This document shows positions 3,850 through 64,000 of a stretch of 64,000 nt of DNA, piece by piece. The position numbers and the translations under genes are program-made. Numbering within the stretch: the stretch's first letter is position 1; every line of letters begins with the position of its first letter. Source of the DNA: Selenomonas ruminantium subsp. lactilytica TAM6421 (GTDB taxonomy: Bacteria; Bacillota; Negativicutes; Selenomonadales; Selenomonadaceae); contig NC_017069.1 of the NCBI RefSeq assembly GCF_000284095.1, positions 1 to 64,000 on the forward strand. The letters run 5' to 3'. Below the pieces are notes generated by a model that did no database searches, was not told the origin of the DNA, and was given only the letters and a program-made list of their open reading frames with translations.

Positions 3850-4305
3850 TTACCGATTGAAAAGGTGGGGGTGAGTACCCTTTAAACTTCTGTGGTGCTC
3901 CCCTCCGATTATGATGTGGTCGAGTACACGAATGTTCATAATTTTTCCGACCTTGCAAAGCCGTTCTGTTGCTCGCAAATCCTCGATACTTGGCTCAGTA
4001 ATACCACTGGGGTGATTATGAAAAACAATCAGCGCCGAGGCATTATGCAACAGTGCCCCTTTGAATATTTCGCGAGGGTCAGCCATGCTTGCATCCACAG
4101 TCCCTCTGCTTGTTTCCATAACTCCTGCGACGTGGTTTTTTACGTTCATGTAAATACAGGCCAATACTTCCTGCGCCTCGTCCTTCAAGTTTAGGGCATC
4201 GTTTATCGTATCAACTGCAGTCTGTGGGGAGTTTATGCTCCGCATTTTTAAATAAGCAGGTGCGGTTTCTCTAACAAGTGCAATTTTACTAACAGTGATA
4301 TTCAT
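3850..4305 (-). CDS. RadC-like JAB/MPN+ domain protein
   Basis: A 151-residue protein that is almost only the JAB domain of the RadC family. It shows the metal-binding signature HNHPSG followed by ...S-x-x-D (EPSIEDLRAT), the GTVDAS strand that precedes it, and the DHIIIGG motif near the end. Full-length chromosomal RadC has an extra N-terminal helix-hairpin-helix region that is missing here, as is usual for plasmid and phage copies. Predicted zinc-dependent isopeptidase/DNA-repair associated fold; the substrate is not known for this family. ATG follows AGGAGG. The leader upstream carries the repeated GAAAAGTGAGCATTTT element. Confidence 0.92.
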   Translation of the reverse strand: MNITVSKIALVRETAPAYLKMRSINSPQTAVDTINDALNLKDEAQEVLACIYMNVKNHVAGVMETSRGTVDASMADPREIFKGALLHNASALIVFHNHPSGITEPSIEDLRATERLCKVGKIMNIRVLDHIIIGGEHHRSLKGTHPHLFNR

Positions 4306-12119: not shown

Positions 12120-13748
12120 ATGGCAAAGAAAAATCAGCTTAGATTCTTTGATGAACTTGCTGAGGCTATGGATAAGACCTCGAAAAAGGGGAATGGCACA
12201 GAAGCATTGCGGGTGCGGGTTCGGGACTGCGCCACATCACTGGAACTGTTTGCGAAAACCTATTTCCCGGATGTTTTTACATCTGAGTTCTCCGAACTGC
12301 ACAAAGAAATTTTCAAATCAGCGGAGGAAATGATTTTAAGGCGTAAACGCCGGAAGAATTACTATGTACGAGCCGCTCCGCGTGGCCACGGCAAAAGTCA
12401 GGTAATCAGCTACCTGTTGATTATTTGGTGCATTTGCTATAAGTACAAACAGAATATTCTACTCGTTTCTGATACGCTCGACCAGGCCAAGTCCTTCATT
12501 TCTGCCATTAAGACAGAACTGGAAGAAAATGAGCGTATTAAAGCCGACTTCGGCGACTTATCCTCTGAGGAGAAATGGGCACAGGACAAAATCATCACAT
12601 CCAACAAAGTTCAGGTTTATGGGCGCGGTGCTGGGCAGAAATTGCGCGGTAACAAATACGGCTCTATTCGCCCCGAGTTGGTCATCATTGACGATCTCGA
12701 GAACGATGAAGCTGTTGAAACTGAGGCACAACGCCGCAAACTATTCAACTGGTTTATGAAAGCCCTGCTGCCAGTAGGAACGCCGACCACCGACTATATC
12801 TTTATCGGGACAGTTTTGCATTATGAAGCATTACTGCAAAAGTTACTTACAGAGCCAACCTTCTCGATGTGGGACAGAAAGCGGTATCAGGCGGTCACAA
12901 AGTTTTCTGATTCTCCCTTGTGGGATGAATGGGAAACTATCATGCTGGACGAAAACAACGATAACGCTGGCGAGGATGCTTACAAGTTCTACAAAAAGAA
13001 CAGAGCGGAAATGCTAGAGGGCGTTGAGAGTCTATGGCCTGCAAGCGGTGCTGACTACTACGAAAACATGATGGAGCTTAGGGTGTCAGATCCTAGTTCC
13101 TTCGCGTCCGAGTATCAGAATGAACCGATTGATCCCTCGCAAGCAGAATTTTTGCCGGAATGGTTTGATTATTACTATGAACTTCCTGAAATTGTGGAGG
13201 TTTATGGTGCGTGTGATCCATCTTTGGGTAAAGCGAAATCAGACCGAGCGGCAATCATTTGGGCTGGCAAGGATAAGCAAGGCTACCTTTACATACTGGA
13301 TGTGCTAATGGGAAGGTATAAACCTGACCGAATCATTGACCTCATTATTGCAGGTTCTATGAAATATCAAAGCCACCTGAAAAGTGTGGTCATTGAAACA
13401 GTACAATTTCAGGCTATGTTCAAGGACGAGGTGGCCAAGCGTGGACTCAATGCGGGTATTCAAATTCCCATAACTGAGTTTAACGACAAAACCCCGAAAG
13501 AGGTTAGACTGCGCGGCCTTATCCCGCGTATCAAAAATAAATATATCAAATTCCGCAAAGACCAAACGGTGCTTGTAAATGAGTTCCTGCGGTTTCCAAA
13601 AGCGTCTGATGACGGCATGGATGCGGTAAATATGATTTGCTCTGCGGCTTTTCCGGTAACAGGGCAGAAACTTGTTTTTGGAGGTATATCCTCTAATATT
13701 AGACCAAAATTCAACCCGATGGGGGGTATATTCGCCAGATGGAGATAA
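12120..13748 (+). CDS. terL: Terminase large subunit
   Basis: 542 residues, normal size for the family. ATPase domain: Walker A RGHGKSQ near residue 87, Walker B LVIIDDLEND near residue 190, coupling motif around YIFIGTVLHYE. Nuclease domain (RNase H fold) begins near residue 360 with YGACDPSLGKAKSDRAAI, giving the first catalytic Asp; further acids follow (VVIETVQFQ, and DDGMDAVNM near the end). It pumps DNA into proheads and cuts it. Starts 9 bases after terS and overlaps the portal start. Confidence 0.96.
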   Translation: MAKKNQLRFFDELAEAMDKTSKKGNGTEALRVRVRDCATSLELFAKTYFPDVFTSEFSELHKEIFKSAEEMILRRKRRKNYYVRAAPRGHGKSQVISYLLIIWCICYKYKQNILLVSDTLDQAKSFISAIKTELEENERIKADFGDLSSEEKWAQDKIITSNKVQVYGRGAGQKLRGNKYGSIRPELVIIDDLENDEAVETEAQRRKLFNWFMKALLPVGTPTTDYIFIGTVLHYEALLQKLLTEPTFSMWDRKRYQAVTKFSDSPLWDEWETIMLDENNDNAGEDAYKFYKKNRAEMLEGVESLWPASGADYYENMMELRVSDPSSFASEYQNEPIDPSQAEFLPEWFDYYYELPEIVEVYGACDPSLGKAKSDRAAIIWAGKDKQGYLYILDVLMGRYKPDRIIDLIIAGSMKYQSHLKSVVIETVQFQAMFKDEVAKRGLNAGIQIPITEFNDKTPKEVRLRGLIPRIKNKYIKFRKDQTVLVNEFLRFPKASDDGMDAVNMICSAAFPVTGQKLVFGGISSNIRPKFNPMGGIFARWR

Positions 13749-15058
13749 AGGCATTTGGCAGGGTGTTTCAAATGAGATTCGGCAAGCACTCGGACAGGGA
13801 GACGCGCTCAACGATTTTTGCGTTCGCGCAGACTGTTCCTAAAGCGTCAACGCCGAAACCCACAGAGAGAATGCTCCGAGATTTTTCTCGTTCTGCTATC
13901 CCTCACCGTGCGATTTCCCTTATCCGGGACGGTGTACTCGCACAGAATTGGAGGGTAGTACCTGCGAAAGCAGGTGATGGCCGGTCTTATAAACAGGCTA
14001 TCAGGGCGATTGAGAACATTATCAAGCACCCTAATGAAACAGACGATTACAGAACCTTTTGGGGACAGATTGTAAACGAAACATTGATAGGGGACAACGG
14101 TGCTGCAGAGATTGTTTTTACAGGCAATCCGACACAGCCCATGAAACTTTATCCTGTCAATGGCTTTTCGCTGGAGTATTGCCACGGATTCTTTGAAAAT
14201 CCGAAGCAGCCGCGATTCTGCCAGCGTCAAAATCAGTACAATCCTGTCTATCTTTATGACGAAGATGTTCTGTATATCCAACATAATAAAACAACCGACA
14301 GTGCTTTTGGATTGTCCCCGCTGGAGTCAGCGTATCGGCAGTTAATGGCACTGGGTTCGGCAGAAGAATACGCCGCTTTGCAGGCTTCACAGGCCATGCC
14401 CCGAAATGCCTTAAACTTGGGTGAGGGCGTGTCCGAGAATGATCTGAAAGCGTTCCGAAAATACTTTGCCGAAGAGGTTTATGGTAGCGGTCGTTCCCCG
14501 ATTATCGGCGGCACAAAAGGTGCGGGGAGTCTTAAAATTGGTGCTGAAGGTGACTCTGAACTGTTCCTCGAATGGCAGAAACACCTCATTACCATTATTG
14601 CCCTGTCGTTCGGCATCGATCCGAAGAAGCTGGGGCAAGGCTCTAACACTGACCGCTCAACCGTTGAAGAACAGAATGAGTCTATGCAGAACGAGGCTAT
14701 TCGCCCCATTTGCTTACTGATTCAGGACGCTATCAACGAAAAAATCATTCGCCGTTTGGGACTGTCCGATGCGGTAAAATTCGAGTTCTACTACGAAGAT
14801 ACGCACGACCAAAAGATGAAAGCCCAGCAAATAATCGTAGACCAATGGAACACCAACGCCTTAACCTTTGCGGAATACCGCGAGAAACTAGGCTTACCCT
14901 ATATTGACAGCCCATACAACGACATGACTCAGGCCGAGATGAAATCTGCTTTGAACAAAAAATACGCAGTTCAAACAGGCGGTTTTAATGGCGTGGGTAA
15001 AAACCAAAAAGATGGAGTTGACAAAAAGACCAATGGAGAAAAAAACACAAAGTCTTAG
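13739..15058 (+). CDS. Portal protein
   Basis: 439 residues, HK97-type portal (PF04860-like). Recognisable parts are AIPHRAISLIRDGVLAQNW, a long strand region (GAAEIVFTGNPTQPMKLYPV), DVLYIQHNKTTDSAFGLSPLESA, the GLSPLE signature, and LITIIALSFGIDPKKLG. It forms the dodecameric ring through which DNA enters. The start at 13739 overlaps terL by 10 bases; a second in-frame ATG (MRFGKHSD, 13772) is possible. Confidence 0.95.
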   Translation: MEIKAFGRVFQMRFGKHSDRETRSTIFAFAQTVPKASTPKPTERMLRDFSRSAIPHRAISLIRDGVLAQNWRVVPAKAGDGRSYKQAIRAIENIIKHPNETDDYRTFWGQIVNETLIGDNGAAEIVFTGNPTQPMKLYPVNGFSLEYCHGFFENPKQPRFCQRQNQYNPVYLYDEDVLYIQHNKTTDSAFGLSPLESAYRQLMALGSAEEYAALQASQAMPRNALNLGEGVSENDLKAFRKYFAEEVYGSGRSPIIGGTKGAGSLKIGAEGDSELFLEWQKHLITIIALSFGIDPKKLGQGSNTDRSTVEEQNESMQNEAIRPICLLIQDAINEKIIRRLGLSDAVKFEFYYEDTHDQKMKAQQIIVDQWNTNALTFAEYREKLGLPYIDSPYNDMTQAEMKSALNKKYAVQTGGFNGVGKNQKDGVDKKTNGEKNTKS

Positions 15059-53678: not shown

Positions 53679-54210
53679 GAGCATAGATATTCCCTGACAA
53701 CTCCATACTCTACGCATCAGGCGTACTCTATTCATTTTTAGGGACTTTATGCCCATTATTTTAAATGCGGGTAATTTCTGAAAATAATTTCTTTGAGTAT
53801 TCGTCATACTTTCTAATGTGTCAATAGACACTGGCTCTCCTTGTATTTATTGGGGTCTTGCTTATGGTATTTCTTTACAGAGATAAAGCGACACAGGGAA
53901 TGCGACCAAAGTCATAATATCTTTGCTTGACATTACATTCGTCACAGTCTATTATTAAAATCACATTAGAAATTGAGGCAAAAAAAAAAAAAAACACCAA
54001 TTCTGACATTTTCCATCGGGGAAACACGTTTTACCATTCGTAGCTCACTTTTTTGCACATCTTCAACTATTCGGGAACGTAAACCACTTATAGTCTATTT
54101 GTAAAATGATACTTTTAATAAAAAGAATTTATTTTATAAAAATGTATTGTTTTTATGTGTATACTGTGGTAGACTGTATTTAGTTTACAAAACAGGAGGT
54201 TCTTTTCATC
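53679..54210. other. Intergenic region with promoter and A-tract
   Basis: 532 gene-free bases. GTGTC-AATA-GACAC hairpin at about 53817. A good promoter at 53927. A run of about 15 A near 53976. AT-rich up to the gene at 54211. I see no gene here. A long untranslated leader of about 250 bases is implied. Confidence 0.55.
53927..53955 (+). promoter_or_regulatory. Rightward promoter for the recombination-replication block
   Basis: TTGACA (53927-53932), 17 bases, TATTAT (53950-53955). Likely drives the overlapping genes from 54211 onward. Confidence 0.75.
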
Positions 54211-62794: not shown

Positions 62795-63131
62795 CTATAC
62801 ACATATAAACAATACAAATAAAAATAAGAATTTATTTTATATAAAAGTATTGACAACACATATAAAAAGGTGTACTATAATCAAGGATTAAAAAAAAACA
62901 GTTTCTACATTGTTTATATCTTCTAATTTAATCATTGTTACTGTTGTTTTTGATTTCCTCTTTTCACAGCATAGGGTTTACTGCCCTGTGTACCGTTCCT
63001 GATGGTTTTGAGTCGCTTCTTTCCTTCGGGTTCGGTATAGAGTGCAGTAAGATTTGTCTTTCTTAGGCAGTTGTTGCACCTCCTTATAATTTCTTTTCAC
63101 ATATACGAGGCCACCAACTGGTGGTTCTCAC
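62795..63131 (+). other. Leader of the tRNA/ncRNA transcript
   Basis: Gene-free. AT-rich with a promoter at 62850, a run of nine A at 62890, then a mixed region with CCACCA-AC-TGGTGG palindrome at about 63112 and a possible CACAG...CTGTG stem near 62968. Probably untranslated leader or part of a larger RNA. Confidence 0.45.
62850..62881 (+). promoter_or_regulatory. Probable promoter of the tRNA region
   Basis: TTGACA at 62850-62855. TATAAT at 62876-62881 is 20 bases away, longer than usual; TACTAT at 62873-62878 gives 17. Either way a promoter is likely here. Confidence 0.55.
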
Positions 63132-63206
63132 AGGGGTATAGCCAAGTGGTTAAGGCATCGGACTTTGACTCCGACATCGGTGGTTCAACTCCACCTGCCC
63201 CTGCCA
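63132..63206 (+). tRNA. tRNA-Gln (TTG)
   Basis: Acceptor AGGGGTA/TGCCCCT, anticodon stem TCGGA/TCCGA with loop CTTTGAC (anticodon TTG), T arm GGTGG-TTCAACT-CCACC, discriminator G, encoded CCA. All arms pair. Confidence 0.92.
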
Positions 63207-63250
63207 ATATGCACTCCAGCGGGTTAACGCCTGTCTTGCGGGTGCTCCAA
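63207..63250 (+). pseudogene. tRNA-like remnant
   Basis: GCACTC and GGGTGC can pair across about 35 bases containing GGGTTAACGCCTGTC, which looks like a tRNA D-loop and anticodon arm, and TCCA follows. Too short for a full tRNA. May be debris of a deleted tRNA. Confidence 0.3.
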
Positions 63251-63253
63251 ATC

Positions 63254-63420
63254 ACCGTATTAGTTCAAAGGTAGAACAGTGTTTTTCCGTATTATGTACT
63301 ACGGCTTTTTCGATAACGTCGTTGATACGTCCGTCAACCATAGTCATCTTGTTTTCCGCATAGCCACGGTATAAAGCAAAGAAAAAACGCAAGCACGGGG
63401 TTCGATTCCCCGATACGGTG
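63254..63420 (+). tRNA. Interrupted Gly-like tRNA with ~95-base insert in the anticodon loop
   Basis: 5' half: acceptor ACCGTAT (63254-63260), D arm GTTC-AAAGGTA-GAAC, anticodon-stem strand GTGTT (63279-63283), then TTTCC. 3' half: AACGC (63386-63390), variable AAGCA, T arm CGGGG-TTCGATT-CCCCG, acceptor ATACGGT (63413-63419), G. Both halves pair perfectly, but 95 or so bases separate them. The D arm and TCC suggest Gly, though discriminator G is unusual and CCA is not encoded. The insert is too short for a group I intron. Confidence 0.6.
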
Positions 63421-63426
63421 CTCCTT

Positions 63427-63510
63427 GGGCGAGTAGCGAAGTGGTTAAACGCAGCAGACTGTAAATCTGCTCCTTCGGGTTCGGTGGTTCAAATCCACCC
63501 TCTCCCACCA
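63427..63510 (+). tRNA. tRNA-Tyr (GTA)
   Basis: Class II tRNA with long variable arm (CTCCTTCGGGTTCGG region), anticodon stem GCAGA/TCTGC with loop CTGTAAA (anticodon GTA), T arm GGTGG-TTCAAAT-CCACC, discriminator A and encoded CCA. Acceptor GGGCGAG/CTCTCCC has one C-U mismatch at pair 4-69. Confidence 0.9.
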
Positions 63511-64000
63511 TATCATCAGAGTGCGACTCCTTTCAAATCCCTTTGGATATGTCTGATGTGTCTGCGCTGCATTAGATAATTCTTTCTTCATCCCCTATGA
63601 AGTTTCTTATCAGCACTCTGGCCAGAATGAATTACATACCGACAGTGCCGTGTTAACCAATGGTTTACTGATGTCGTAACAACTGTTGGAATGTATTCAG
63701 ATAGACTAGAGCCTGTCAACAATTTGGTGAAGAACTCTTACATACTACAATGAGTTGGCATGGTTCAAATCAAAAAAATGGAATATCTGTAGTCGCATGA
63801 ACAACCCGTCAGGGGTGCGTGGTGAATGTTGCAGATGTTCCGAAGTCTAGCTAGACAAAACTACCTAACTTATTTACGGCTATCTCCAACCGGCAGACCT
63901 CTTTGGATGAGTTGAGGCGAGGCAAATCGAGAGTCCTGAACATGACATAACTGTTCCGACAAGGGCCAGTCGTTAAAAACCAGCGGGGAGACCAACCAAT
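63511..64000 (+). ncRNA. Large structured RNA candidate (ROOL/GOLLD-like setting), cut by window end
   Basis: No reading frame. Helices: CAGAGTGC 63517-63524 with GCACTCTG 63613-63620 (8 pairs), enclosing TCTGATG/CATTAGA (63552-63558/63570-63576) and CTTCAT/ATGAAG (63586-63591/63597-63602). GGAATATCTGT 63780-63790 pairs with GCAGATGTTCC 63831-63841 (11 pairs, two G-T), enclosing ACCC/GGGT. GAACA/TGTTC pair near 63940. Lies right after phage tRNAs, where ROOL and GOLLD RNAs are typically found. Class not proven. Confidence 0.55.

Follow-up and report, generated by a model that had tools for sequence, protein, structure and literature searches.

The 548 nt between positions 63511 and 64058 of this Selenomonas ruminantium contig may well be a free phage noncoding RNA, released from a tRNA-led precursor and resembling the large phage RNAs ROOL and GOLLD by place, size and fold; on the analysis presented here we hold this reading at about even confidence. 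It draws on a gene-free gap in a phage context with tRNAs directly upstream, on a putative promoter element common to the gap's operon and the replication block, on a hairpin with a U7 run at the far end, and on fold z-scores in the ROOL range with helices that stay steady across seven folds. It is weakened by the failure to find a relative, by other windows of the contig that fold as well, by closing stems that depend on the ends folded, by uneven folding along the RNA, by an ordinary helix count, by a terminator that competes with other pairings, and by a related phage fragment (L009) that carries another ORF at the same place.

The window, i.e., the whole stretch of DNA that was analysed, covers bases 1-64,000 of a contig that is 72,893 bases long and belongs to a genome of 3.63 Mb in 10 contigs. 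Sequence past the window edge was included by way of contig positions 60001-72893 (L004, in which 4001-4058 is the end of the RNA lying outside the window). The contig carries genes that by their PHROGs names encode an integrase, terminase, portal and Erf-like annealing protein, as well as a primase/helicase, exonuclease, SSB, dUTPase and DNA methyltransferase. Judged by this gene content, the contig, and with it the DNA around the gap, is phage or prophage. An IMG/VR viral contig of equal size encodes the same proteins at 100% identity. As a separate observation on this contig, four + strand windows at 13055-14946, where the terminase and portal genes lie, fold unusually well (z -5.3, -3.7, -3.3 and -3.0).

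Features of the putative tRNA/RNA operon and its surroundings, numbered as in the window and continued past its edge
Feature	Position	Strand	Basis or remark
Putative early promoter of the tRNA/RNA operon	62826-62878	+	AT-rich element plus promoter-like site
AT-rich element	62826-62845	+	First noticed by self-blast
TTGACA-17-TACTAT promoter-like site	62850-62878	+	Consensus scan
Structured leader before tRNA-Gln	62895-63131	+	No credible gene; fold against shuffles
tRNA-Gln (TTG)	63132-63206	+	ARAGORN, Rfam
Interrupted tRNA with cloverleaf arms, anticodon loop carrying a 95-nt insert	63254-63421	+	ARAGORN
tRNA-Tyr (GTA)	63427-63510	+	ARAGORN, Rfam; its 3' end would set the 5' end of the RNA
Candidate large noncoding RNA, part in the window	63511-64000	+	No credible gene; fold z; continues to ~64058
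5' domain, 9-pair closing stem	63516-63621	+	P 0.95 in the fold of 63511-64065
Middle domain, branched, with a 17-pair interrupted stem	63628-63699	+	63627-63700 folds at z -3.11
3' domain	63701-64000 in the window, end ~64058 outside	+	Possible closing pair 63708-63718/64042-64051
13-pair hairpin stem, steadiest helix	63780-63841 (63780-63792/63829-63841)	+	Folds
Intrinsic-terminator-like hairpin with U7	64019-64050, T run 64051-64057	+	-14.1 kcal/mol
73-aa ORF, 3' of the gap	starts at 64085		AGGAGG site 64071-64076

The gap on the 3' side of tRNA-Tyr is 574 bases long (63511-64084), extends beyond the window edge and contains no credible gene. Reading frames within or overlapping 63511-64000 are 30-53 aa long, with one 55-aa frame that merely touches base 63511, and the five of these short ORFs that were searched gave no Pfam match at E<=1; a protein gene in the gap was rejected on these grounds. 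The first-pass annotation had claimed at least 490 gene-free bases (63511-64000) located after phage tRNAs, and both points hold, the gap lying directly 3' of tRNA-Tyr on a contig with phage genes. DNA-level repeats were likewise rejected as an explanation of the gap, which contains no direct repeat and a single 12-nt palindrome (63614-63629), as were tRNA remains, since no tRNA similarity was found inside 63511-64090 at E<=10. An antisense relation to another gene of the contig is unsupported; outside its own locus, the RNA has at best a 25-nt match on the contig, with an E of 0.12. The 73-aa ORF that ends the gap is followed by the early genes for dUTPase and SSB, and a search for its relatives found only itself.

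Upstream of the tRNAs, the AT-rich element draws attention by its second copy at 54123-54142, ahead of the replication block's Erf-like gene. Two sites with <=3 mismatches occur in the window versus 0.02 expected, for a pattern that was chosen after the match, and perhaps the replication block and the tRNA/RNA operon, with this element before each of them, belong to one phage regulon. Promoter-like sites of the type listed in the table were found five times in the region, versus 2.9 +/- 2.1 by chance. The leader before tRNA-Gln folds far better than its shuffles (z -4.47; 0 of 300 as good) and may itself be a separate structured RNA; Rfam gave chance matches only, at E 0.38 and above. Pairing between this leader and the downstream RNA was considered and is unsupported, with 170 of 200 shuffled leaders doing equally well.

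The tRNA stretch itself has some irregular elements. A hairpin of 40 nt lies next to tRNA-Gln at 63207-63248; it has a stem of 63211-63218 with 63237-63245, ends in GGTGCTCCA, and resembles the acceptor minihelix of a tRNA or what remains of one. The interrupted tRNA is called by ARAGORN as tRNA-Leu(TAA) only when introns are allowed and is otherwise uncalled, and the boundary of its insert appears ambiguous, as a Gly TCC reading would fit too. The insert contains one terminator-like hairpin, versus 1.3 by chance; a search of the rest of the genome for similar sequence gave nothing significant, the lowest E being 1.27. Group I introns are far longer than an insert of this size.

When folded and compared with shuffled sequence, 63511-64058 reaches a z of -3.24, with 1 of 300 shuffles as good, and its reverse complement a z of +0.09, i.e., the excess folding is on the + strand only. 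The 490 nt that lie in the window fold more weakly (z -1.70; 3 of 100 shuffles as good), and the whole gap is at z -2.76 (60 shuffles). Better folding than in shuffles is seen in each of three parts, namely the 5' part at 63511-63626 (z -2.78; 2 of 300 as good), the middle part (1 of 300 shuffles; z in the table) and the 3' part at 63701-64058 (z -3.66; 0 of 200). Two true ROOL RNAs of the same bacterial class, treated alike, gave z-scores of -2.66 and -5.08, and the 548-nt RNA falls within this range. On the wrong strand, one of these controls folds as well as on the right strand (z -5.01) and the other does not (z -0.79), and strand asymmetry is therefore no firm mark. Among same-length + strand windows of the contig, 5 of 162 fold at least as well as the RNA (12 shuffles a window, one pooled standard deviation), and one of those five (62783) overlaps the leader and tRNAs of the same operon. 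Inside the RNA, 150-nt windows range from z -2.8 to +0.9, the latter at 63801-63950.

The impression of unusually many helices in the first-pass annotation did not survive comparison with shuffles: helices of at least 8 pairs (G-U allowed) number 24, versus 27.2 +/- 5.1 in 60 shuffles, 44 of which reach as many. The longest helix, of 15 pairs (about 63779-63793 with 63828-63842), was matched or beaten in 6 of 200 shuffles. Its broader claim of a large structured noncoding RNA accounts best for the tRNAs, the possible promoter, the + strand fold and the terminator taken together, with the ordinary helix count against it, and overall the evidence for structure is modest.

To judge the stability of individual helices, seven folds with differing ends were compared. 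The 13-pair stem at 63780-63841 is complete in all seven (P 0.98), the outer pairs of the middle stem likewise occur in seven of seven (P 0.81-0.89), helix 63982-63991/64003-64012 is kept in every fold whose stretch contains it, and helix 63867-63913 is present in six of the seven lowest-energy folds. The stem closing the 5' domain varies with the ends folded (P 0.29-1.00), and 18 of 1000 shuffles reach such a stem. An 8-pair closing stem had been proposed here at the outset; its complementarity is real (63517-63524 with 63613-63620) and its P is 1.00 in the 548-nt RNA, but it is end-dependent, with a P of 0.29 in the 490 nt originally considered and 0.34-0.46 in a longer transcript. In the 63511-64065 fold, the partner of the 5' end lies near 63613-63621 and that of the last strand is 63708-63718, predictions that again depend on the ends.

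The far end of the RNA is placed by the terminator-like hairpin, which in the predicted structure suggests an RNA of about 548 nt. The hairpin competes with other pairings (P 0.29-0.53 in longer folds) and was not listed by the consensus scan, presumably on account of its internal loop.

ROOL and GOLLD, both of which had been put forward for this locus, are phage or prophage RNAs of unknown function that form RNA-only cages and often lie near tRNA islands, according to excerpts of PMC12286853; the ROOL cage is an octamer. ROOL is described as matching 16S rRNA in abundance in a strain of Ligilactobacillus salivarius, and GOLLD as rising during phage lysis (excerpts of PMC12286853; PMC5643018; PMC12515178). 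Location in a phage or prophage near tRNAs, a trait of both, is also found for the RNA described here. At gathering scores, Rfam detects nothing but tRNAs in the window. Around the RNA, the only matches besides tRNAs were an antisense look-alike over tRNA-Gln at E<=5 and two animal snoRNA models at E<=10, and the 3' part alone had no match at E<=10; a known Rfam family was thus rejected as the identity of the RNA. The ROOL model (RF03087; cut-off 99.1 bits) gave no match at gathering, at E<=5 or at E<=10, and a scan of the entire genome at E<=0.001 was negative as well. This search works here, since the same model finds ROOLs of 320 and 158 bits in 2 of 379 class genomes. The GOLLD model (RF02032; cut-off 150 bits, conserved 3' region) matched nothing here at E<=5 or E<=10, and its scan of the entire genome at E<=10 was negative too, with control genomes yielding sub-cut-off matches only (5 of 14). 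Assignment to ROOL is therefore not borne out by the covariance-model search up to E<=10, nor is assignment to GOLLD, for which the search has no strong positive control.

Like ROOL, the RNA would be a large noncoding phage or prophage RNA of the kind often near tRNA islands (PMC12286853, in excerpt), of similar length and with a fold z in the same range by the same method. In contrast to ROOL, it has no score with the covariance model. RF03087 is drawn with a stem closing the 5' end on the 3' end; the predicted pairing of the ends here varies with the stretch folded. Nine ROOL strings were compared with the RNA, of which five are absent and four are matched loosely (up to two changes); among the true ROOLs, L017 misses one of the nine and L018 two. 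These ROOLs of the same class lie at 1501-2040 of L017 and 1501-2112 of L018; the latter is from the same family and has a tRNA-Phe about 800 bases upstream. GOLLD, too, is a large noncoding RNA of phages; it often lies close to tRNAs and sometimes carries tRNAs within its linker, but many GOLLDs exceed 800 nt (both from excerpts of PMC12286853), whereas the RNA here measures about 548 nt without leader and tRNAs and has no covariance-model score.

Relatives were sought in several collections. A blastn query containing the tRNAs retrieved 889 records, the best 20 of which cover the tRNA stretch and reach <=14 bases beyond tRNA-Tyr, and the RNA was then searched alone. Among 50,697 phage records, 7 had matches of 20-35 nt at E 2 or worse; among 72,556 plasmid records, 4 had matches of 21-38 nt at E 7. 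In 189 genomes of the family, two besides its own had 25-nt matches (L006 and L007; E 0.006-0.008), which we take as chance, and in 380 genomes of the class only its own was found at E<=0.001. Two covariance models, each built from one sequence entered twice and covering 153 and 128 nt of the RNA, were also used. In 379 genomes one model detected nothing but the window, and in 378 genomes the other detected the window and one 22-bit match (L044). The L044 match was rejected as a relative, as it sits inside a reading frame, dnaG-like from its translation. Three exact DNA patterns in IMG/VR returned the contig itself and four others (L028, L033-L035) that share 17-19 bases with the RNA and were rejected, neither covariance model matching them; L032 resembles the tRNA-Tyr part and was rejected on the same ground. 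One exact pattern in the GTDB contigs gave no match. Such patterns detect close relatives only, and the collections may omit records of the genome itself. With a single sequence and no relatives, covariation could not be tested, and no description of the 63511-64058 RNA was found in a limited library of literature on large phage RNAs.

The flanking protein was followed as well. In phage fragment L009, the upstream protein is 76% identical, the sequence runs into another ORF at the place of the RNA, and no tRNA occurs in the 210 bases seen after the upstream gene, where the fragment ends; this comparison makes it probable that the tRNA/RNA module is a cassette of an optional kind. Five further sequences (L011-L015), with a flanking protein 32-41% identical, have no tRNA and only chance Rfam matches in the stretches covered, and L029, another flanking-protein relative, ends before the RNA's place. 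The upstream protein gave 315 pattern matches in the GTDB contigs, none confirmed as a relative, and no relative was found in 99 other genomes.

What else could the gap be? Because the 3' arm of the terminator has competing partners, pairing either within its hairpin or with 63708-63718 as in attenuators, the region could be an extended 5' leader whose terminator is conditional and which controls the 73-aa ORF, dUTPase and SSB, an explanation that we consider unlikely. As in attenuators, the terminator-like hairpin stands just before a gene, and the T run ends 13 bases before the AGGAGG site, which leaves little room for another promoter. The long-range pair 63708-63718/64042-64051 reaches a P of 0.84-0.90 in 63511-64058 and 63511-64065, against 0.29-0.53 for the hairpin, and the balance of the two shifts with the ends folded; such a duplex is reached by 33 of 1000 shuffles. 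However, its P falls to 0.00-0.17 in the other four folds containing it, once the leader or bases after 64065 are included. The RNA is far longer than attenuators and lies behind tRNA genes, where leaders of 550 nt are unusual, and Rfam matched no riboswitch or leader family up to E<=10.

The gap could instead be a non-functional, decaying spacer or what is left of a tRNA array, its good folding being due to chance, and to this we give a similarly low probability. The interrupted tRNA and the 40-nt tRNA-like hairpin adjoin the RNA, relatives were not found, and the contig windows that fold as well would fit such filler; it would leave unexplained the lack of tRNA similarity inside the gap, the terminator-like hairpin at its end and the three parts that each fold better than shuffles. 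Very improbable, finally, is a ROOL so divergent that Rfam cannot score it. The setting and size are those of ROOL, ROOL is present in the same bacterial family (L018), and GGCGAAAGTC starts 29 bases from the inferred 3' end, compared with 30 for the same ten bases in the L017 ROOL. Yet neither the whole RNA nor its 3' part scores with ROOL at E<=10, the string comparison leaves loose matches, and about 0.2 ten-base matches with two changes are expected in 548 bases, with nine strings tried.

The computations show the gap, the tRNAs, the terminator-like hairpin and a + strand fold that beats shuffles. For the reading as a free phage noncoding RNA, we infer promoter use, processing, stability, function and assembly as follows. 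An early-type promoter at about 62850-62878 would drive one transcript comprising the leader, tRNA-Gln, the interrupted tRNA, tRNA-Tyr and the RNA, ending at the intrinsic terminator at about 64058. When the 3' end of tRNA-Tyr is matured, the RNA of about 548 nt would be set free and would fold into several domains. The RNA itself would then act, accumulating during phage development as a stable structural or assembling RNA beside the phage tRNA supply, like ROOL and GOLLD. It may thus be an orphan tRNA-linked large phage RNA that works like these two without belonging to either.

As a single sequence without found relatives, the RNA may represent a new kind of large phage RNA. Somewhat more specifically, and tentatively, it could be a third, sequence-unrelated kind of large RNA of phage tRNA islands, with a tRNA-led precursor, a structured leader and perhaps self-assembly. 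If so, large tRNA-linked RNAs would have arisen in phages on more than two occasions. An unrelated RNA at a place of the ROOL and GOLLD type would offer an independent case for finding the reason behind that location, and its presence in the same place, in a family that also has ROOL, would point to a demand for such an RNA that comes from the place itself.
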